64,000 nucleotides of DNA from an uncultured Oscillospiraceae bacterium. GTDB lineage: Bacteria > Bacillota > Clostridia > Oscillospirales > Oscillospiraceae. The notes under the pieces are model-generated. The model was given only the letters and a program-made list of their open reading frames with translations, did no database searches and was not told the DNA's origin. The DNA lies in contig CANQHN010000004.1 in assembly GCA_947623745.1 (NCBI GenBank), positions 62,001 to 126,000 on the forward strand. The letters are read 5' to 3'. This document shows, in pieces, positions 2,264-13,332 of the stretch. Within the stretch, counting starts at the first letter, position 1, and each line of letters opens with the position of its first letter. Made by a program: the position numbers and the translations under genes.

Positions 2264-3862
2264 ATGAAACTGACATTTTTCGGCGCGGCCCACGCGGTGA
2301 CGGGAAGCTGTCACTGTCTGGAGGTCAACGGCAAGAAGATCCTCATCGACTGCGGCCTGCAGCAGGGCCGGGATGAGCACGACAACAACGCTCTGGACTT
2401 CGCCCCGGGCTACATCGACTGCGTACTGGTCACCCACGCCCACATCGACCACTCCGGGCGCATCCCCCTGCTGGTGAAGAGCGGGTTCACCGGCCCCGTC
2501 TACACCACCCGCCTCACCGCCCAGCTGCTGGGCATCATGCTGCTGGACTCCGCCCACATCCAGGAGAGCGACGCCCAGTGGCAGAACCAGAAGGGCAAGC
2601 GGGCCGGCCTGCCCCCGGTGGAGCCCCTGTACACCGTGGAGGACGCCCAGGCCGCCCTTGGACAGCTCAAAAAGGTGGAGTACGGGGAGATCTTCGACCT
2701 GTGCGAGGGGGTCCGGGCGCGCTTTACCGACGCGGGCCACCTGCTGGGCTCCGCCTGTGTGGAGATCTGGGCCACCGAGGGGGACGTGACCAAGAAGATC
2801 GTGTTCTCCGGCGACCTGGGCAACGTGGACCAGCCCATCATCCGGGACCCGTCCTTTGTGGATCAGGCCGACTACGTGGTCATGGAGTCCACCTACGGCG
2901 ACCGGGACCACGAGCCGCCGGAGAGCTACACCGAGGCCCTGGCCCAGCTCATCGACAAGGTGTTCTCCCAGGGGGGCAACATCGTCATCCCCTCCTTCGC
3001 CGTGGGCCGCACCCAGGAGCTGCTGTACTTCATCCGGGAGATCAAGGACCGGGGCCTGGTGAAGAGCGTGCCCAACTTCACCGTCTGCGTGGACAGCCCC
3101 CTGGCCGCCCAGGCCACCAGCATCTACTCCGGGGACCTGCACGGCTACCTGGATGAGGAGGCCATCGCCGTGATCCAGGGGGGCGACAACCTGTTCACCT
3201 TCCCCGGCCTGACCCTGACCCAGAGCACCGAGGAGTCCAAGGCCCTCAATGAGGACAAGACCTCCAAGATCATCATCTCCGCCTCCGGCATGTGCGACGC
3301 CGGGCGCATCCGCCACCACCTGAAACACAACCTGTGGCGCCCCGAGTGCGCCGTGGTATTCGTGGGCTACCAGGGGGAGGGCACCCTGGGCCGCCGCCTG
3401 CTGGAGGGGGCCAAGAGCGTGAAGCTCTTCGGCGAGGAGATCGCCGTCCGGGCCCGCATCATCAACTTCAAGGGCCTGAGCTCCCACGCCGACCGGGACC
3501 ACCTGATCGCCTGGGCCCAGCACTTTGCCCCCAAGCCGGAGCAGGTGTTCGTGGTCCACGGGGACGCCCCTGTGACCGAGGTGTTCTCCGAGACCCTCAA
3601 CGGCCTGGGCATCCCCGCCCACGCCCCGCTGTACGAGGAGGTCTACGACCTGGCTGAAAATCGTATGCTGGCCAAGGGCGTGGTGCTGGAGCGCAAAAAG
3701 ACCACCGGCGGGGCCTCCGCCCCCTCGGCGGCCTATGTGCGCCTCCAGGATACCGCCAAGGAGCTGGAGTTGCTCATCCACCGCAGCCGGGGCAGGGCCA
3801 ACAAGGATCTGGCCAAGCTGGCCGACCAGATCAAGCAGATCATGGAGAAATGGGACATATAG
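2264..3862 (+). CDS. Beta-CASP metallo-beta-lactamase RNA-processing hydrolase
   Basis: 532-residue MBL-fold protein with a beta-CASP insertion and C-terminal RMMBL segment, as in CPSF73-like/COG1236 ribonucleases. Zinc-binding HAHIDH lies at residues 58-63. Beta-CASP motifs follow: ESTYGDRDH, IPSFAVGRTQELLY, ISASGMCDAGR and SSHADRDHL near residue 407. Family members cleave RNA using two zinc ions in the cytoplasm; the exact substrate is unknown. It differs from RNase J in lacking the RNase J C-terminal domain. AAGGAGGTC precedes the ATG with good spacing. The DUF975 gene follows after 44 nt and may be co-transcribed. Confidence 0.9.
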   Translation: MKLTFFGAAHAVTGSCHCLEVNGKKILIDCGLQQGRDEHDNNALDFAPGYIDCVLVTHAHIDHSGRIPLLVKSGFTGPVYTTRLTAQLLGIMLLDSAHIQESDAQWQNQKGKRAGLPPVEPLYTVEDAQAALGQLKKVEYGEIFDLCEGVRARFTDAGHLLGSACVEIWATEGDVTKKIVFSGDLGNVDQPIIRDPSFVDQADYVVMESTYGDRDHEPPESYTEALAQLIDKVFSQGGNIVIPSFAVGRTQELLYFIREIKDRGLVKSVPNFTVCVDSPLAAQATSIYSGDLHGYLDEEAIAVIQGGDNLFTFPGLTLTQSTEESKALNEDKTSKIIISASGMCDAGRIRHHLKHNLWRPECAVVFVGYQGEGTLGRRLLEGAKSVKLFGEEIAVRARIINFKGLSSHADRDHLIAWAQHFAPKPEQVFVVHGDAPVTEVFSETLNGLGIPAHAPLYEEVYDLAENRMLAKGVVLERKKTTGGASAPSAAYVRLQDTAKELELLIHRSRGRANKDLAKLADQIKQIMEKWDI

Positions 3863-3906
3863 CCGTTCTTTTCAAGGGAAAGGCACCTTAGAAGGGGGAA
3901 TTCCTG

Positions 3907-4845
3907 ATGTATCTCAACTCAAAGCAGCTCAAGGGGCCGGCGTGGGAGTCCATGCGCGCCGCGGTGCCCTCGGCGGTGCGGGTGACGCTGGCGTACTTTC
4001 TGCTCACCAGCGGCCTGGGCGCCGTGGTGGACCTGTTCGCCCCCTCGGTGACGCTGGCGGACCTGTTCTACGGCTCCGGGCTTCGGGTCTGGGGCGGGCT
4101 GTTCCTGGCGGTGCTGCTGGCCATCTACAACTCCGTGATGAGCTTCGGCTACACCGGCTGGGCCCTGAACACCGCCCGGCGGAGGGAGACCGGGTACGGC
4201 GACCTGTTCAACGGCTTTTCCGTCGTGGGGCAGGTGATCTGGATGGAGCTCCAGATCGTGCTGCGCGCCGTGGGCTGGAGCCTGCTGCTGGCCATCGGCT
4301 TCTCTGTGCTGATCGGCCTTGCGGCGTTCATGTTCATGGCTATCCGCCCGCTGGCCTACCTGGGGACCGCCCTGGTGACCGCCGCGCTGTACGCGGCCAT
4401 CTTTGGGGTGCTGCTGCGCTATGAGCTGGCCCCGTACCTGCTGTGGGACTACCCCGACGACGGGGCCGGAGCGGCGGTGCGGCGCAGTGTGCAGATGATG
4501 CGGGGCAATATCTGGCGGCTGTTCAAGCTGTACCTGTCCTTCTGGCCCTGGATCCTGGGCAGCATCCTGCTCAGCTGGCTGGCCATGGGGGCGGTGCTGT
4601 CCTTCCACATCGGGGAGCTGACGGACCTGTTCCAGACCTTCAGCTCCGGCGGCATCAACCCCGCCGCCGCGGTGGCCCAGATCCAGACCATGCTGAACGG
4701 CCCGGCCGCCACCCTGCTGCTCCTGGCGGTCGGCCTGCCCATCGACCTGTTCTACCACCCCTACCAGCGCATCACCGTGGGGAACTTCTACCGGATGCTG
4801 TCCCAGGAGGCGGTGGCGGAGCAGTTCACCGGAGAGACATTTTAA
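3907..4845 (+). CDS. DUF975 family integral membrane protein
   Basis: 312-residue polytopic membrane protein with about six hydrophobic segments and the DUF975 hallmark region after helix 2 (residues around 84-104, TGWALNTARRRETGYGDLF), where a short conserved loop precedes an amphipathic segment. The function of DUF975 is unknown; members are common in Firmicutes. The conserved WDYPDDGAGAAVRRS stretch precedes the second membrane half. GAAGGGGGAATTCCTG precedes the ATG. It lies 44 nt after the beta-CASP hydrolase gene with no terminator between, so an operon is likely. Confidence 0.85.
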   Translation: MYLNSKQLKGPAWESMRAAVPSAVRVTLAYFLLTSGLGAVVDLFAPSVTLADLFYGSGLRVWGGLFLAVLLAIYNSVMSFGYTGWALNTARRRETGYGDLFNGFSVVGQVIWMELQIVLRAVGWSLLLAIGFSVLIGLAAFMFMAIRPLAYLGTALVTAALYAAIFGVLLRYELAPYLLWDYPDDGAGAAVRRSVQMMRGNIWRLFKLYLSFWPWILGSILLSWLAMGAVLSFHIGELTDLFQTFSSGGINPAAAVAQIQTMLNGPAATLLLLAVGLPIDLFYHPYQRITVGNFYRMLSQEAVAEQFTGETF

Positions 4846-4857
4846 GAGTATTATTTT

Positions 4858-4880
4858 GGGGCCGCCCCTTGGGCGGCCCC
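4858..4880 (+). terminator. GC-rich hairpin after DUF975 gene
   Basis: GGGGCCGCCCcttGGGCGGCCCC, without a proper T-run after it; possibly a weak terminator or the edge of the repeat region that follows. The same stem recurs at 5180-5203 with a T6 tail. Confidence 0.5.
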
Positions 4881-4884
4881 TACT

Positions 4885-4978
4885 TTGTCAAAATAGCCTC
4901 GCAGAGTTCGCGCCCGCAGGCGCGAATCAAATGCGATTTATTTTTCCCGGCGGCGTGTACGTCGGGGAAAATTCTTCT
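4885..4978. repeat. Palindromic repeat, family B copy 1
   Basis: About 92 bp closely matching 41552-41642. Shared parts are AGCCTCGCAGAGTTCGCGCC, a TCGCGCCcgcaGGCGCGA hairpin, and a second stem closed by TTTTTCCC/GGGGAAAA around GGCGTGTACG. In the other copy this stem is TTTTTTCC/GGAAAAAA, so the pairing is kept while bases change. Both copies lie directly after a GC-rich terminator-like hairpin. Confidence 0.8.
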
Positions 4979-5009
4979 CGGCCCGCAAACGTGCAAGTTG
5001 GAAAATGGG

Positions 5010-5171
5010 TCCCCAGCCGAAGCCCAGCGCAGCGGGTTCGGCTGGGAAAGGAGGAGCAGCGTAATGAGTGAGCTTTCGCCGCAGGCGGAAGCGAAGGATA
5101 TAGAGCTTGCGACGACGCGCGATGCAGCGGGCCGCAGCCTTCTCAAAAAAGTGGCTTCGCCACTTTTTTGA
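5010..5171 (+). repeat. Multi-hairpin spacer with candidate 35-aa ORF
   Basis: Contains a perfect 10-bp inverted repeat CCCAGCCGAA/TTCGGCTGGG (5015-5050 area), a strong SD AAAGGAGGAG (5048-5057), an ATG at 5064 opening a 35-codon frame (start MSELSPQAEAKD) that ends TGA at 5169-5171, an internal GCTTTCGCC/GGCGGAAGC stem, and a perfect 13-bp hairpin TCAAAAAAGTGGC/GCCACTTTTTTGA (5143-5171) that contains the stop codon. The element resembles spacers in the tRNA cluster. Whether the small frame is translated cannot be told from sequence. Confidence 0.5.
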
Positions 5172-5179
5172 CGGCCTGT

Positions 5180-5209
5180 GGGGCCGCCCCTTGGGCGGCC
5201 CCTTTTTTA
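5180..5209 (+). terminator. Intrinsic terminator before rnf operon
   Basis: GGGGCCGCCC/GGGCGGCCCC stem, 4-nt loop, T6 tail at about 5203-5208. Confidence 0.85.
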
Positions 5210-5247
5210 GTAAATGTGTCCGCCCTGTTAATTTTATAAATTGGAAC

Positions 5248-5276
5248 TGGACAAGGGGCCGGGTTTTTAGTATGAT
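5248..5276 (+). promoter_or_regulatory. Promoter of the rnf operon
   Basis: TGGACA (5248-5253), 17-bp spacer, TATGAT (5271-5276), about 60 bp before rnfC. Confidence 0.6.
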
Positions 5277-5334
5277 GTAGGTTACACTAAAATGTCGTTT
5301 TATGCCCACCCGGCACAGGAGCAGGAGGTGTGCT

Positions 5335-6657
5335 ATGGCACGGATGTTTGGCGGGATCCATCCCGCCGACCGAAAAGAGAATACGCGGCGCAAGCCGCTG
5401 ATGCGGCCGGACAGCCCGCCGGAGCGGGTGTTCCTGCCGCTGGATATGAGCTCAGGCGCCCCCGCCGTCCCGGTGGTGGAGCAGGGACAGCAGGTGTACG
5501 TGGGGGAGCTGATTGCCCGCGCCGATGGGGAGGAGAGCGCCCATGTCCACGCCAGCGTGTCCGGCGTGGTGGAGGGCGTGGTGGACTACCCCTTTCCCTG
5601 GGGGGGCAGCGCCCCGGCGATCGTCATCGCCAACGACGGGCAGAACGCCCTCTGTCCCGACCTGCCAGAGCCGCTGAGCATGGACAGCGCCTCCCAGGAG
5701 GACATCATGGAGCGCATCCAGCTGTGCGGCATCACCGATATGGGGCGGGACGCCTCCCCGGCCCACTGGAAGATCCTGCGGGCCCGCGGCCGGGCCGACA
5801 CCCTCATCGTGAATGCCGCCGAGAGCGACCCCTACGTCACCGCCGACCACCGGGTCATGCTGGAGCTGGGGGCCCAGGTGCTGCTGGGCGCCCGGGCGCT
5901 GGCCCGGGCCCTGGGCGTCAGCCGGGCCTTCATCGCCGTGGAGGGGGACAAGCTCAACGCCGCCGAGTCCATGGAGAGCCGCATCAGCAACCGCCAGGAG
6001 CGGGTGGAGCTGCGCATCCTGCCCTCCCGCTACCCCTTGGGCGGGGAGAAGCAGATCGTCCGGGCCATCACCGGCCGGGAGGTCCCGCCGGGCGGGGAGG
6101 CGCTGGACGTGCGGTGTGTGGTGTTCAACGTGGCCTGCGCCCTGGCTGTGGGCACCGCCATCTCCCGAGGCACCCCTGTGACCCACCGGGCGGTGACGGT
6201 CTCCGGCGGCGCGGTGAACCGCCCCCGGAACCTGTGGGCCCCCATCGGCACCCCGCTGACCGACCTGGTCACCGCCGCGGGCGGCTTCCGGGAGCAGCCG
6301 GAGATGATGCTGCTGGGCGGGCCCATGACCGGGGTGGTGCTGCGGGACCTGACCTCCCCGCTGCTGAAGAATACCAACAGCCTGCTGTGCCTGGCCGGCT
6401 GGGAGCGGCCCGAGCCCATCCCGGCGGCCACCTGTATGCGCTGCGGCCAGTGCGTGGACGTGTGCCCCATGCACCTGGCCCCCGTGCTGGTGCGCCGGGC
6501 GCTGGAGGCGGGGGACATGGCGCAGATGTATAAGCTCCACCCCAGCGACTGCATGGAGTGCGGCTGCTGCTCCTATATCTGTCCGGCCCACATCCCCCTG
6601 GTGTCCATCGTGCGGGCCGGGCGCAAGGCCCTGGAAGAGGAGGTGGAGGCGCAGTGA
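5335..6657 (+). CDS. rnfC: Rnf electron-transport complex subunit RnfC
   Basis: 440-residue peripheral subunit of the Rnf ferredoxin:NAD+ oxidoreductase, which normally binds NADH/FMN and passes electrons through two [4Fe-4S] clusters. The N-terminal RnfC region begins FGGIHPADRK. The C-terminal half carries two cluster motifs, CMRCGQCVDVCP (about residues 367-378) and CMECGCCSYICP (about 406-417). The ATG at 5335 is preferred over an upstream in-frame ATG because AGGAGGTG sits just before it and because family members start here. First gene of a three-gene operon; its stop overlaps the GTG start of the next gene. Length is normal for the family. Confidence 0.93.
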   Translation: MARMFGGIHPADRKENTRRKPLMRPDSPPERVFLPLDMSSGAPAVPVVEQGQQVYVGELIARADGEESAHVHASVSGVVEGVVDYPFPWGGSAPAIVIANDGQNALCPDLPEPLSMDSASQEDIMERIQLCGITDMGRDASPAHWKILRARGRADTLIVNAAESDPYVTADHRVMLELGAQVLLGARALARALGVSRAFIAVEGDKLNAAESMESRISNRQERVELRILPSRYPLGGEKQIVRAITGREVPPGGEALDVRCVVFNVACALAVGTAISRGTPVTHRAVTVSGGAVNRPRNLWAPIGTPLTDLVTAAGGFREQPEMMLLGGPMTGVVLRDLTSPLLKNTNSLLCLAGWERPEPIPAATCMRCGQCVDVCPMHLAPVLVRRALEAGDMAQMYKLHPSDCMECGCCSYICPAHIPLVSIVRAGRKALEEEVEAQ

Positions 6658-8306
6658 ATTCCTATCCCGCCTCCGGGCGTGTGCCGCCCCAGCTGTCCCG
6701 CAACTACACTGTCAGCACCATCATGCGGGACGTGCTGGTGGCCCTGCTGCCCGCCCTGTGCATGTCGGTGTTCCTGTTCGGCCTGCGGGTGCTCACCCTC
6801 ACCGCCGTGTCGGTGGCCACCTGTGTGCTGTCCGAGTTTATTTACCGCCGCGCCACCCACAAGGAGGACAGTGTCCAGGACCTGTCCGCCTGCGTCACCG
6901 GTGTGCTGCTGGTGATGTGCCTGCCGGTGACCGCCCCCTACTGGGCGCCGGTGCTGGGCGGCGTGTTCGCCATCGTGGTGGTCAAGCAGTTCTACGGCGG
7001 CCTGGGCCGCAACTTCCTCAATCCCGCCCTGGCGGCCCGGATGCTGCTGTGCACCTTCCCCCAGATGATGACCACCTGGACCGCCGCCTTCGACCGGCAG
7101 CCGGTCTGGGGCCATATCGACGCGGTGTCCGCCGCCACCCCCATGTCCTACCTCCACAACGGGCAGCTGCCCCCCCTGGAGCTGGGCCAGATGATGCTGG
7201 GACAGCACGGCGGCTCCGTGGGCGAGGTGTGCGTGTTCCTGCTCCTGCTGGGCGGGGCCTACCTGCTGCTCACGGGGACCATCTCCTGGCGCATCCCCTT
7301 CGCCTACCTGGGCACGGTCGCCCTGCTCACCTTCCTCACCCCCCAGGCGGGGACGCGGCTGGAGTGGATGACCGCCCAGCTGTGCAGCGGCGGGCTGGTC
7401 CTGGGGGCCTTCTTCATGGCCACCGACTACACCACCTCCCCGGTGACCCCCCGGGGCCACCTGCTCTACGGGGCGGGGTGCGGCGTGCTGACCGTCCTGC
7501 TGCGCTACCACGGCTCCTACCCAGACGGGGTGGGCTGGGCCATCCTGACCATGAACTGCGTGGTGTGGATGCTGGACCGGGCGGGCCTGCCCCGGCGCTT
7601 TGGCCGCAAGCCCCTCTACATCGCCCAGAAGCGGGTCCGCCAGACGCTGGAGAACCTGTTCGCCATCAAGTTCGTCAAGCCCGACTGGAAGTTCTCCCTC
7701 CGGGACCGCAACACCATGCCCGGCGAGGAGCACCTGGATCAGATCCACCACTTCGTCCACTGTGCCGCCGCCTTCGGCGGCGTGGCCGCAGCGATGGTGA
7801 TCCTGGTCACCGTCACCTACCGCTACACCGACCTGGACATCGCCCAGGGGAGCAACCAGGCCGAGCAGGCCATCCTGGCCCAGGTGATGCCCCAGGCCCA
7901 GTACCGCACGGAGACCCGCTACCGGTCCCCCGACGCGGTGAGCATCACCGCCGGCTACTCCAGCAGCGAGCTGGTGGGCTACTGCGTGGAGGTCCAGACC
8001 CCCGGCTTCGGCGGGATGATCACCATGGTGGTAGGCGTGGACCTGGACGGCCGGGTCACCGGCGTGGCCATCACCGACCACAAGGAGACCCCCGATATGG
8101 GCACACGGGCCCTGGAGGGCCCCTTCCTGGAGCAGTTCATCGGCCGCTCCGGCACCATCCGCCTGTCCGGGCGCAACTCGGTGGACGCCGTGTCCGGCGC
8201 CACCGTCACCTCCCAGGCCGTGCTGGAGGGCGTGAACCAGGCGCTGGCCACGGTGGCCAACCTGGATACCTCCGTCGATCTGTCCTCTGAGGACGGCGAA
8301 TTCTAA
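6654..8306 (+). CDS. rnfDG: Fused RnfD-RnfG subunit
   Basis: 550-residue fusion of two normally separate Rnf subunits. Residues about 1-320 are RnfD: polytopic, with VSAATPM at 158-164 holding the expected FMN-attachment threonine (T162). After a linker (about 320-360) comes one membrane helix (about 362-386) and an extracytoplasmic FMN-binding RnfG domain with VDAVSGATVTS near the end (attachment Thr about 517). Both flavinylation motifs are intact, so both halves look functional. The GTG start at 6654 overlaps the rnfC stop (GTGA) and has AGGAGGTGG upstream; no stop or frameshift separates the two halves. Fusion is directly visible; the effect on electron transfer is unknown. Confidence 0.9.
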   Translation: MNSYPASGRVPPQLSRNYTVSTIMRDVLVALLPALCMSVFLFGLRVLTLTAVSVATCVLSEFIYRRATHKEDSVQDLSACVTGVLLVMCLPVTAPYWAPVLGGVFAIVVVKQFYGGLGRNFLNPALAARMLLCTFPQMMTTWTAAFDRQPVWGHIDAVSAATPMSYLHNGQLPPLELGQMMLGQHGGSVGEVCVFLLLLGGAYLLLTGTISWRIPFAYLGTVALLTFLTPQAGTRLEWMTAQLCSGGLVLGAFFMATDYTTSPVTPRGHLLYGAGCGVLTVLLRYHGSYPDGVGWAILTMNCVVWMLDRAGLPRRFGRKPLYIAQKRVRQTLENLFAIKFVKPDWKFSLRDRNTMPGEEHLDQIHHFVHCAAAFGGVAAAMVILVTVTYRYTDLDIAQGSNQAEQAILAQVMPQAQYRTETRYRSPDAVSITAGYSSSELVGYCVEVQTPGFGGMITMVVGVDLDGRVTGVAITDHKETPDMGTRALEGPFLEQFIGRSGTIRLSGRNSVDAVSGATVTSQAVLEGVNQALATVANLDTSVDLSSEDGEF

Positions 8307-8321
8307 AGGGGGGAGAGGACT

Positions 8322-8909
8322 ATGTATTCTGCGCATTTGACCGGGGTGGCCCTGGCCGCCCTGCTGTCGGAGAACTTCCTGCTGGTCAACTGCCTGGGAA
8401 TCGGCACCCGGACGGAGGCCTTCCGCAGCCCGCGGGAGGCCCGGCGCACCGGGTTCAGCGTGCTCATCGCCATGCTGGCGTCGGTGTTCTTCACCTGGAT
8501 GGCCGACTACCTGATCCTGCGGCAGTTCCGGCTGGAGTACCTGCGGGTGATGGTGTTCACCGGCATCTCCCTGGGCAGCGTGGCTCTGCTGCGGTTCCTG
8601 TTCCGCACCTTCCTGCCCGAGCTGTCCGCCCGTCTGGACGACAGCATGGCCGCCCTGTCCACCAACTGCGCCGCCCTGGGCGCGTCCCTCCTGGCCTCCA
8701 CCCGGGGCTACCTGCTCAGCCAGGCCATGACCTTCGCCCTGTTCGGCGGGCTGGGGGTGCTGGTGGTGCTCATCAGCTTCGCCGGCATCCGGGACACGGT
8801 GGGCTTTGACGACTGCCCCCGGGTGTTCCGCGGCGCGCCCATCGAGCTGATCACCGCCGGGCTGATGGCCCTGGCCCTGGTGGGGTTCTACGGGCTGCAT
8901 ATAAACTGA
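8322..8909 (+). CDS. rnfA: RnfA-like membrane subunit, displaced N-terminal cysteine
   Basis: 195-residue six-helix membrane protein of the RnfA/RnfE (NqrE/NqrD) family. It is closer to RnfA by LEYLRVMVF, STNCAALG and the C-terminal FRGAPIELITAGLMAL. In known RnfA/NqrE proteins a cysteine in LG(L/I)C and one in the TNC motif help hold a membrane [2Fe-2S] cluster shared with the RnfE/NqrD partner. Here the first motif reads NCLGIG (C24), four residues early, while TNC is kept. Last gene of the operon, 15 nt after rnfDG, followed by a terminator; no RnfE or RnfB gene follows. GGGGGGAGAGG precedes the ATG. Confidence 0.85.
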   Translation: MYSAHLTGVALAALLSENFLLVNCLGIGTRTEAFRSPREARRTGFSVLIAMLASVFFTWMADYLILRQFRLEYLRVMVFTGISLGSVALLRFLFRTFLPELSARLDDSMAALSTNCAALGASLLASTRGYLLSQAMTFALFGGLGVLVVLISFAGIRDTVGFDDCPRVFRGAPIELITAGLMALALVGFYGLHIN

Positions 8910-8924
8910 ACAGGACCGACTGAA

Positions 8925-8962
8925 ACGTCAGCCCCCGGCTGGATGCCGGGGGCTGACGCTTG
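8925..8962 (+). terminator. Hairpin terminator after rnf operon
   Basis: CGTCAGCCCCCGGC/GCCGGGGGCTGACG stem with 5-nt loop, short tail CTTGT; marks the end of the operon although the T-run is weak. Confidence 0.7.
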
Positions 8963-8991: not shown

Positions 8992-9020
8992 TTGACAGCG
9001 ATTTTTTATTCCGATATAAT
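8992..9020 (+). promoter_or_regulatory. Consensus promoter of the MATE gene
   Basis: TTGACA (8992-8997), 17-bp spacer, TATAAT (9015-9020): a perfect sigma-A promoter. Confidence 0.92.
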
Positions 9021-10607: not shown

Positions 10608-10778
10608 TCAGCCCTGAGAGATCGCGCTCATGGGGCAGGTGTCCGCGCAGCTGCCGCAGTCCAGGCAGCTGCCGGCATTGATCTCGTAATGGGCGTCGCC
10701 CTGGGAGATCGCGCCGACGGGGCAGCTATCGGCGCAGGCGCCGCAGCTGATGCAAGCATCACTGATAACATATGCCAT
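10608..10778 (-). CDS. 2[4Fe-4S] clostridial-type ferredoxin
   Basis: 56-residue soluble electron carrier. Two motifs, CISCGACADSCP (about residues 9-20) and CLDCGSCADTCP (about 38-49), give the eight cysteines for two low-potential [4Fe-4S] clusters, the classical clostridial ferredoxin layout. GGAGGTGTG lies upstream of the ATG at 10776-10778. An upstream in-frame extension is possible but lacks an SD and is not conserved-looking. It has its own promoter and converges on the MATE gene. It could carry electrons between 2-oxoacid oxidoreductases such as IorAB and Rnf-type complexes; that link is inference. Confidence 0.93.
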   Translation of the reverse strand: MAYVISDACISCGACADSCPVGAISQGDAHYEINAGSCLDCGSCADTCPMSAISQG

Positions 10779-10809
10779 AGGAAACACACCTCCATAAGAA
10801 TGTATCCCC

Positions 10810-10837
10810 ATTTTACCATAAGATTTGAAAATTGCAA
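10810..10837 (-). promoter_or_regulatory. Ferredoxin promoter
   Basis: On the minus strand: TTGCAA (10832-10837), 16-bp spacer, TAAAAT (10810-10815). Confidence 0.65.
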
Positions 10838-10896
10838 TGATAATTTTTGGAAAGTTGGGAATAGTTTTTGCAGACTGCTGTAATGAGGTGAATACC

Positions 10897-13332
10897 GTGT
10901 CAGAGAGCCGCTTTTCCTCCACCGCCCTAGGGGCCATCCGTCTGGCCCGCACCAACGCCGCCCGGCTGGGTCACAGCTATGTGGGCAGCGAGCACCTGCT
11001 GCTCGGCCTGGCCTGCCAGGAGTACAGCCCCGCCGGGCGCATCCTGGCCGAACAGGGCATGGACGGCCAGAGCCTGCGCCTGGCCATCGCCCAGCTGGTG
11101 GGGACGGGCACCCCTTCCCACGCCACCCAGCAGGGGCTGACCCCCCGCTGCTGCAAGGCCATCCAGGTTGCCGCCGCTGAGAGCCGCCGCCAGGGCCAGA
11201 GCGCGGTGAGCGCCGAGCACCTGCTGCTGGCCCTGCTGCGGGAGGAGGGCTGCGGGGCCTGCCGGCTGCTGGAGGACGCCGGGGCGGACGTGGAGGGGCT
11301 CCGCCGTGCCGTGTGCGCCTACCTGGAGGGGGAGGACTCCGCCCCCGCCCGGCCCTTCCGGCCCCGGGACCCGGAGCGGCTGTCCGGGGAGACCCGCCAG
11401 TTGGACCAGTGTTCCCGGGACCTGACCCGCATGGCCGCCGAGGGGCGGCTGGACCCGGTGATCGGCCGGGAGGAGGAGCTGCAGCGGGTGGTGCAGATCC
11501 TCTCCCGCCGCACCAAGAACAATCCCGCCCTCATCGGGGAGCCGGGCGTGGGCAAGACCGCCGTGGCCGAGGCCCTGGCCCTGGCCATCGCCGACGGCAC
11601 CGCCCCGGCCCACCTGCTTGGGCGCCGGGTGTGCGCCCTGGACCTGTCGGCCATGGTGGCGGGCACCAAGTACCGGGGGGAGTTCGAGGACAAGCTGCGC
11701 CACGTTTTGCAGGAGGTGCGCCGGGCGGGCAACGTCATCCTGTTCATCGACGAGCTGCACACCATCGTGGGGGCGGGCTCAGCGGAGGGGGCCATCGACG
11801 CGGCCAACATCCTCAAGCCCGCCCTGAGCCGGGGGGAGCTGCAGGTCATCGGGGCCACCACCATCCAGGAGTACCGCAGATATATCGAGAAGGACGCCGC
11901 CCTGGAGCGGCGGTTCCAGCCCATTACCGTCCGGGAGCCCGACCGGGAGCAGACCCTGGCCATCCTGCGGGGGCTGCGGGGCCGGTATGAGGCCCACCAC
12001 CACCTGGTCATCTCCGACCAGGCCCTGGAGGCGGCGGTGGACCTGTCCCGGCGCTACCTGCCTCAGCGGTTCTGGCCGGACAAGGCCATCGACCTGATGG
12101 ACGAGGCCGCCGCCCAGGCCCGGCTCCAGGGCAGGGCCCTGCCCCTGGAGCTGCGCCAGCTGACCCAGCGCTCCCAGCAGGCCAAGGTCCAGCTGACCCA
12201 GGCGGTGCGGGACCAGAACTTCGAGCGGGCGGCCATGCTCCGGGACGCGGAGGAGAGCTTCCGCTCCCAGCTGGAGAGCGCCCGCCACTCCTGGCAGGAG
12301 GGGCAGGGGGTGCCCACGGTGGACGCCGGACACGTCCGCGGGGTGCTCTCCCAGTGGACCGGCGTGCCGGTGGACGACCCCGGGGAGCGGGACCGGCAGG
12401 CCCTGCTGGGCCTGGAGGACCGGCTGCGCCGGGACCTGCTGGGCCAGGACAGGGCGGTGGAGGCGGTGGCCAGGGCCATCCGCCGCTGCCGGGCGGGCCT
12501 GGGGGACCCCCGCCGGCCGGTGGGGTGCTTCCTGCTCATGGGCCCCACCGGGGTGGGAAAGACCCAGCTGTGCCGCTCCCTGGCCGCCGCCCTGTTTGGC
12601 AGCGAGGAGGCGCTGATCCGCTTCGATATGTCGGAGTATATGGAGTCCCACGCCGTGTCCCGGCTCATCGGCTCGCCCCCCGGCTATGTGGGCCACGAGG
12701 AGGGGGGCCAGCTCACCGAGGCGGTGCGCCGCCGGCCCTGGTCGGTGGTCCTGCTGGACGAGCTGGAGAAGGCCCACCGGGACATCTGGAACCTGTTGCT
12801 CCAGGTGATGGAGGAGGGGGCCCTCACCGACGCCCAGGGGCGGCAGGCGGACTTTCGGAACACCGTGCTGGTGATGACCTCCAACCTGGGGGCCCGGCGC
12901 TTTGCCAAGGGCGCCCGGCTGGGATTTGCCCCCGGGGAGGGGGAGGACGTGGAGCGCGCGGTGCTGGCCGACGCCCACGCCGCCTTCCCGCCGGAGTTTT
13001 TTGGCCGGCTGGACGCCGCGCTGGTGTTCCACCCCCTGGACCGCCCCTGCCTGGAGGCCATCGCCCGGAACCTGCTGGCCCAGACCGGCCAGAGGCTGGC
13101 CAGGCGGGGGGTGGTGTTCCGCCCGGAGGCGGGGGCGGTGGAGCTGCTGGCCGCCCAGGCGGAGAAGCAGCCCGGCGGGGCCCGGCCCCTGCGGCGGGCC
13201 ATCGCCAGGCAGGTGGAGGACCCCGCCGCCGACCTGCTCCTGTCCGGCGCCCTCCGCGGCGGCACCCTGTTTCTCCGGGCGAGGGGGGAGGAGCTGGTGC
13301 TGGATACGGAGCCGGCGGAGGAGACCGCTTAA
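10897..13332 (+). CDS. clpC: ClpC-type AAA+ unfoldase, ATP-binding subunit
   Basis: 811-residue double-AAA+ chaperone of the ClpA/ClpC group, which unfolds proteins and feeds them to ClpP. Order: duplicated Clp N-domain (about 1-145), AAA1 with Walker A GEPGVGKT at 214-221, a short middle domain with a UVR-like [17 protein letters not shown]2 with GPTGVGKT, then a ClpP-docking-type loop RLGFAPGEG and the D2-small domain. The GTG at 10897 (GAGGTG upstream) is chosen over an upstream ATG because the N-domain begins there. The usual ctsR-mcsA-mcsB neighbours are absent. It may be a second or specialised Clp ATPase; clpP is not in this window. Confidence 0.9.

Follow-up and report, generated by a model that had tools for sequence, protein, structure and literature searches.

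The window analyzed here (the whole 64,000-nucleotide stretch of DNA, from an uncultured Oscillospiraceae bacterium) carries at 5335 to 8909 a reduced Rnf operon consisting of rnfC, a fused rnfD-rnfG gene, and an rnfA-like gene, with neither rnfE nor rnfB adjoining it. All three genes lie on the forward strand. rnfC (5335 to 6657) encodes 440 amino acids with profile matches to a barrel domain, a Nuo51-type flavin mononucleotide (FMN)/NADH domain, SLBB, and two [4Fe-4S] motifs. The RnfD-RnfG fusion, termed DG herein (6654 to 8306; 550 amino acids), has a GTG start that overlaps the rnfC stop and consists of a D part (approximately residues 11 to 318), a basic linker, and a G part with a membrane helix (approximately residues 358 to 550). 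The rnfA-like gene (8322 to 8909) encodes a six-helix membrane protein of 195 amino acids, RnfA', in which Gly28 replaces the first [2Fe-2S] cysteine and Cys116 is present. Gene calls and family profiles confirmed this operon as a sequence-only reading of the DNA had described it, with both flavin-attachment motifs of the DG chain intact: the threonines are present in SAATPM (7128 to 7145, forward strand, beginning at DG residue 159) and in SGAT (8193 to 8204, forward strand, beginning at DG residue 514).

Profile scores differed among the subunits. RnfC (407.6 bits against TIGR01945; cut-off, 246) and the RnfD part (289.4 bits against TIGR01946; cut-off, 207) scored above their thresholds. 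The RnfG part, at 87.6 bits, fell below the TIGR01947 cut-off of 102 and passed the Pfam FMN_bind cut-off. RnfA' exceeded the Pfam Rnf-Nqr cut-off (83 bits versus 23.8) and, at 108 bits, was far below the 229 of the rnfA profile TIGR01943. The only Pfam domains in DG were NQR2_RnfD_RnfE and FMN_bind, with no PF00175 NAD-binding domain.

The order C-DG-A is conserved in relatives. A first set of 60 relatives included 36 genomes of the same genus; among these, a close RnfA' relative was full length in 34 (40 to 64% identity), a contig-end fragment in one, and absent from one. Scanning genome contigs with an alignment of 22 RnfA' relatives gave 54 loci, from records named Lawsonibacter, Pseudoflavonifractor, Flavonifractor, Flintibacter, Colidextribacter, and one uncultured Clostridium, the remaining records being Oscillospiraceae, Clostridiales, Firmicutes/Bacillota, or unclassified. 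Together with the window and 20 fetched genus loci these made 75 entries, one of which (L127) was partial with no usable operon; the 74 usable entries hold 57 distinct RnfA' sequences, the set behind all counts out of 57 below. At 56 of the 57 distinct loci, C, DG, and A follow one another on a single strand and DG is one open frame (the C gene being cut by the contig end at L107 and L111); the remaining locus, L054, begins within D, where its contig ends. Because the D-G join is in one frame in 57/57 loci, the L054 frame running off the contig end, a frameshift or assembly error at the join is rejected. The stretches examined for the 57 loci contain no RnfE-like frame, and the RnfB-like matches at L041 and L079 are opposite-strand frames outside the operon. 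At the level of whole genomes, an FMN_bind frame of at least 480 amino acids, which in unfetched genomes was assigned to DG by this size, is present in 56 of 61 genus genomes and missing in G024, G033, G339, G340, and G344. One genome, G031, carries two different RnfA' copies on two contigs (L027 and L054). Beyond the genus, the best match in an order-wide sample of 295 genomes reached 173 bits, versus 282 for the window, and all 63 matching records in a plasmid search were below 60% identity. A literature search, partly unfocused and with thin cover of subscription papers, found no description of an RnfC-DG-A operon.

The host genome (3.05 Mb, 76 contigs, 98% complete) also contains a complete C-D-G-E-A-B Rnf operon on another contig (C3; L074, 4991 to 9936). 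It encodes three Rnf-Nqr proteins, namely, RnfA' of the reduced operon and the RnfE and RnfA of the complete one; its single match to the RnfB-type FeS domain (PF04060) falls within the complete operon, and it has one ApbE flavin transferase. RnfB and RnfE are missing from the neighborhood, as claimed from the sequence, and their copies sit in the complete operon. A split operon in which these would be the sole rnfE and rnfB copies is rejected, since C, D, G, and A copies accompany them in the complete operon. The reduced operon is a specialized paralogue and not the only Rnf of the cell; because a complete second Rnf is encoded in the same genome, the reduced copy would be relieved of the ferredoxin job. 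The RnfB-type FeS domain was detected in 57 of the 61 genus genomes, including 31/31 of those of good quality, in one copy in 55 and two copies in 2.

Phylogenies of the C and D subunits place the reduced copies with the six-gene Rnf of sister genera, separate from the complete Rnf of the host genome. Here, type I denotes the complete operon of the host genome and type II the other lineage (our labels). Each of the same-family loci fetched from other genera (13/13) carries type II as an intact operon of six genes. The RnfD tree was built from 17 of the 57 reduced copies and 39 comparison rows, the odd L073 among them; there, the reduced copies form one clade (100/100) beside the same-family six-gene L134 (99/92) and apart from type I. 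In the RnfC tree (17 reduced copies and 38 comparison rows), they again form one clade (100/100), joined to nine same-family six-gene rows (97/97) and separate from type I. Support for the deeper forks is weak in either tree, and the two trees disagree on the exact sister. Both trees indicate that the reduced operon descends from the family's own six-gene Rnf, from which it follows that RnfE and RnfB were lost; of this anatomy and descent we are highly confident. The pattern resembles a swap of Rnf types (e.g., L074 versus L133 to L145), with intact type II in sister genera and intact type I plus reduced type II in the host genome. Among the same-family genomes listed with a match, 20 of 21 had a single RnfA-type match at an E value of 1e-20.

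Rnf and NQR, each with six subunits, are described as loops that carry the electron outward and then return it. The Acetobacterium woodii Rnf path, as given in PMC11889175, runs from ferredoxin to RnfB, the [2Fe-2S] cluster of RnfA/E, RnfG with its outer FMN, the RnfD flavins, RnfC, and finally NAD+. The same source reports that changing the cysteines of the [2Fe-2S] or RnfB clusters abolishes activity (for [2Fe-2S], ferredoxin-dependent NAD+ reduction) and growth, and that RnfA residues K32, R154, and E158 interact with RnfB cluster B8. The first [2Fe-2S] cysteine of RnfA is present at 0/57 reduced loci versus 18/20 comparison loci (L073 among the 20), and with this ligand gone and RnfE absent the four-cysteine RnfA/E set for the intramembrane cluster is incomplete. 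The RnfB-facing positions have also changed: K or R occupies the K32 site in 15/57 versus 17/20, R the R154 site in 15/57 versus 19/20, and E the E158 site in 0/57 versus 12/20. These residue losses are stronger evidence than gene absence alone, and a ferredoxin:NAD+ oxidoreductase role of the known type is unlikely for the products of the reduced operon.

The ligands of the second limb, from RnfG to RnfC, are kept. All eight cluster cysteines of RnfC occur in 56/56 rows, and the FMN loop retains its central glycine pair in 51/56 and Glu163 in 54/56; in one deviating row, the gene is truncated ahead of both sites. The RnfD flavin threonine is found in 57/57, as are N124 and D248 (Clostridium tetanomorphum numbering; 57/57 each). 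By alignment, these two residues are the counterparts of A. woodii N123 and D249, which coordinate riboflavin and whose change stops growth and activity according to PMC11889175. The RnfG flavin threonine is likewise in 57/57, within SGAT (45), TGAT (7), or AGAT (5). The predicted structure of DG (from 53 sequences) has a predicted local distance difference test score (pLDDT) of 82, a predicted template modeling score of 0.59, and a low-confidence linker near residues 342 to 352; it matches RnfD 7zc6_D (best template modeling score, 0.89 by target length) and RnfG 7zc6_G (0.67). The model is fair, and we drew no D-G geometry from it.

With the first limb missing and the second kept, transfer between NADH and the outside via C, D, and G is the simplest mechanism. 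RnfB, RnfE, one RnfA cluster ligand, and most RnfB-docking residues are gone; electrons would pass from cytosolic NADH to the FMN and two [4Fe-4S] clusters of an assembled complex's RnfC, then to the RnfD flavins, the RnfG FMN, and an acceptor outside. The redox order suggests the outward direction, as does analogy with the NQR/RNF-like half systems discussed below. The fusion would tie G to D, the sole redox partner left to it, and RnfA' may stay as a structural neighbor. On balance, we consider it somewhat probable that the second limb of this half-Rnf carries NADH electrons outward without an RnfA/E-gated Na+ step. The sequence-only reading had proposed a minimal flavoenzyme with a partner other than ferredoxin, perhaps an extracytoplasmic one; the loss of genes and ligands fits this, and an extracytoplasmic partner appears more likely, although the partner itself was not found.

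Several observations weigh against such outward transfer. No acceptor was identified: more than two FMN_bind proteins occur in only 7 of the 61 genus genomes (exactly two in 45, one in 7, and none in 2), and where there are two, these are generally one RnfG-sized and one DG-sized protein by frame length. No neighboring gene is conserved throughout the 57 loci, and none points to a partner. In the subclade formed by the window and its two closest relatives, L075 and L035, the FMN loop of RnfC is eroded, reading GITDMGRDASPAHWK in the window versus forms like GIVGMGGAAYPTWEK in relatives. RnfD has lost E185 in 11/57 (kept in 46/57), and N90 occurs in 0/57, with only 17/39 comparison rows having it as well. 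RnfA' has been conserved even though it seems to have lost its canonical electron role, and the second cluster cysteine, Cys116, persists in 57/57. Finally, G339 and G344, both 95% complete, have no DG-sized frame, so the operon is dispensable and its loss does occur.

The eroded FMN loop bears on the electron donor. Because it is eroded in the subclade of the window, NADH is perhaps not the donor in this strain, and the RnfC clusters, whose cysteines are complete in all 56 rows, could instead be fed directly by ferredoxin or another cytosolic protein, the FMN site being vestigial. Since most relatives retain the loop, we regard a non-NADH donor as unlikely for the operon.

Still less likely, in our estimation, is that Na+ or H+ is pumped through RnfD and driven by NADH oxidation with an outside acceptor. 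The C. tetanomorphum structure led to a proposed ion path through RnfD, with E185 and N90 put forward for Na+ (PMC9588780), and N124 and D248 are invariant here. The absence of N90 and the incomplete retention of E185 speak against this path, however, and the A. woodii work places the pump in RnfA/E gated by [2Fe-2S], with no path through RnfD (PMC11889175). Since the reduced operon keeps the RnfD limb but lacks the RnfA/E cluster, whether its products transport Na+ would separate the RnfD and RnfA/E pump models.

Subunit sharing, in which C, DG, and RnfA' would assemble with the RnfE and RnfB of the complete operon into an ordinary hybrid Rnf, is very improbable. Both missing subunits are encoded in the genome, and the RnfB-type domain is nearly general in the genus, including every good-quality genome. 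RnfA' nevertheless is without the needed ligand cysteine and most of the RnfB-facing residues, and the complete operon is a different branch with which the reduced D and C do not group.

RnfA' has also gained cysteines: Cys24 (52/57), four residues before the lost ligand; Cys97 (46/57; not in the window); and Cys165 (56/57). Instead of being a leftover scaffold, it could have swapped the [2Fe-2S] cluster for thiols, with Cys24, Cys165, Cys97, and Cys116 as a putative DsbD/CcdA-like dithiol conduit; we hold this to be highly improbable. If true, NADH electrons would reduce thiols, or a new metal site, on the outer side of the membrane. The AlphaFold prediction for RnfA' is poor (mean pLDDT, 66), its best Protein Data Bank matches still being RnfA/NqrE chains, and no cysteine distances were taken from it. 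Positive charges average 10.1 in the loops lying on the inner side in RnfA versus 2.4 in the outer ones, with an excess of at least +2 in every protein, using loop limits that we set; this predicted distribution is that of RnfA and not of a dual-topology protein.

We give little credence to the operon being a decaying duplicate without function. Two genes are lost, RnfC motifs are eroded in the subclade of the window, and a few genus genomes are without the operon; against this, open frames, gene order, and redox residues are maintained across the genus. Nonsynonymous divergence (dN) was below synonymous divergence (dS) in all 18 pairs compared, a rough NG86 estimate that is near saturation and weakly informative (YN00 gave no value). 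An antiparallel RnfA' homodimer in which Cys24 and the invariant Cys116 would hold a rebuilt metal cluster, thereby replacing the RnfA/E pair, is scarcely credible, as Cys24 is missing in five sequences and the inside-loop charge bias speaks against two opposite topologies.

The flanks of the operon were examined for its limits and for a partner. Upstream on the forward strand, a terminator-like stem-loop with a T-run (5180 to 5202; a consensus match) closes the preceding unit and is followed by a promoter-like site, TGGACA-17-TATGAT (5248 to 5276), which is a consensus match only. The sequence-only reading had ended the operon after rnfA, with a terminator and a separate promoter for the next gene. 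The promoter is a perfect forward-strand consensus match, TTGACA-17-TATAAT (8992 to 9020), lies before a MATE transporter gene, and marks the operon end; the terminator is likely but not certain, being a 14-pair inverted repeat (8926 to 8958; strand not assigned) in a stretch with a folding energy of -38.7 kcal/mol and without a U-run. The commonest neighbor gene in relatives, presumably cardiolipin-synthase-like judging by its first residues, occurs at 31/57 loci, 30 times downstream on the opposite strand. The neighbors in the window were rejected as partners, as each is seen at only a handful of the 57 loci, counting the window: DUF975 in 6, MATE in 5, CBS in 4, MBL in 3, and ferredoxin in 2, one of the last being RnfC itself. 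Beyond the MATE gene, the window has a small 2[4Fe-4S] ferredoxin-type gene (10608 to 10955, reverse strand) that is not next to the operon in other loci.

Elsewhere in the host genome, contig C42 encodes a 603-amino-acid reductase of extracytosolic type with FMN_bind and FAD_binding_2 domains (L131, 1336 to 3147). A second FMN_bind frame of at least 480 amino acids was found among the 61 genus genomes only in the host genome, apart from G031 with its two DG frames. As a general partner this reductase is unsupported, since a non-DG frame of such size, judged by size, is unique to one genome; it may be the partner in the host strain.

Compared with known systems, the reduced operon shares with Rnf (RnfABCDGE) the RnfC, RnfD, and RnfG parts with their cofactor ligands, the RnfA fold, and its descent, and differs in having no RnfB or RnfE, an incomplete [2Fe-2S] ligand set, and a D-G fusion. 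The join itself is real but is not distinctive by itself: a sample of 398 genomes from the phylum gave at least two long-frame matches outside the order, and the two listed are D-G fusions in complete C-DG-E-A-B operons of two distant genomes (L153, 3886 to 9040; L154, 5606 to 10744). These have the same fusion, but E, A, and B are all present. D-G fusion is thus compatible with a full Rnf, and the novelty is the loss of one limb, genes together with RnfA docking and ligand residues, in a genus that also keeps a full Rnf. A different reduced Rnf-like operon, C-D-E'-A', with no G or B before the next gene, was observed in another family of the order (L073 in G042, 3532 to 7952); its E' has a long, seemingly disordered N-terminal stretch, and the A/E cluster cysteines and the D flavin threonine are both absent.

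Na+-NQR likewise derives from Rnf and, according to PMC12174285, is thought to have lost rnfB following a duplication. In NQR, NqrF replaced RnfB and the NqrD/E cluster pair was kept, whereas the reduced operon has no replacement for RnfB and has lost RnfE; it contains no gene for NqrF or for a cofactor-free NqrA, and its C subunit retains the clusters.

The NQR/RNF-like half systems have only one of the two transmembrane paths, along which electrons are proposed to move unidirectionally from NAD(P)H to a flavin on the extracytosolic side (Meheust 2021, PMC8238504; PMC10979944). Like these, the reduced operon has RnfD/NqrB- and RnfG/NqrC-type parts and, by its gene and ligand content, a predicted single path that ends at an extracytosolic FMN-bind domain. 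Unlike the half systems of Meheust 2021, where NqrB/RnfD is fused to PF00175, DG is without PF00175; the NADH side is RnfC, the D threonine is kept, D is fused to G, and RnfA remains. The definition of RNF in Meheust 2021 requires RnfB (PMC8238504), and because of this the reduced operon would not be counted as RNF there; a survey with that requirement would miss the label. The reduced operon suggests an unrecognized NADH-to-outside electron outlet in gut-associated bacteria, and the best reading by analogy is that the products of the reduced operon would work like the NQR/RNF-like half systems but are built from different parts.

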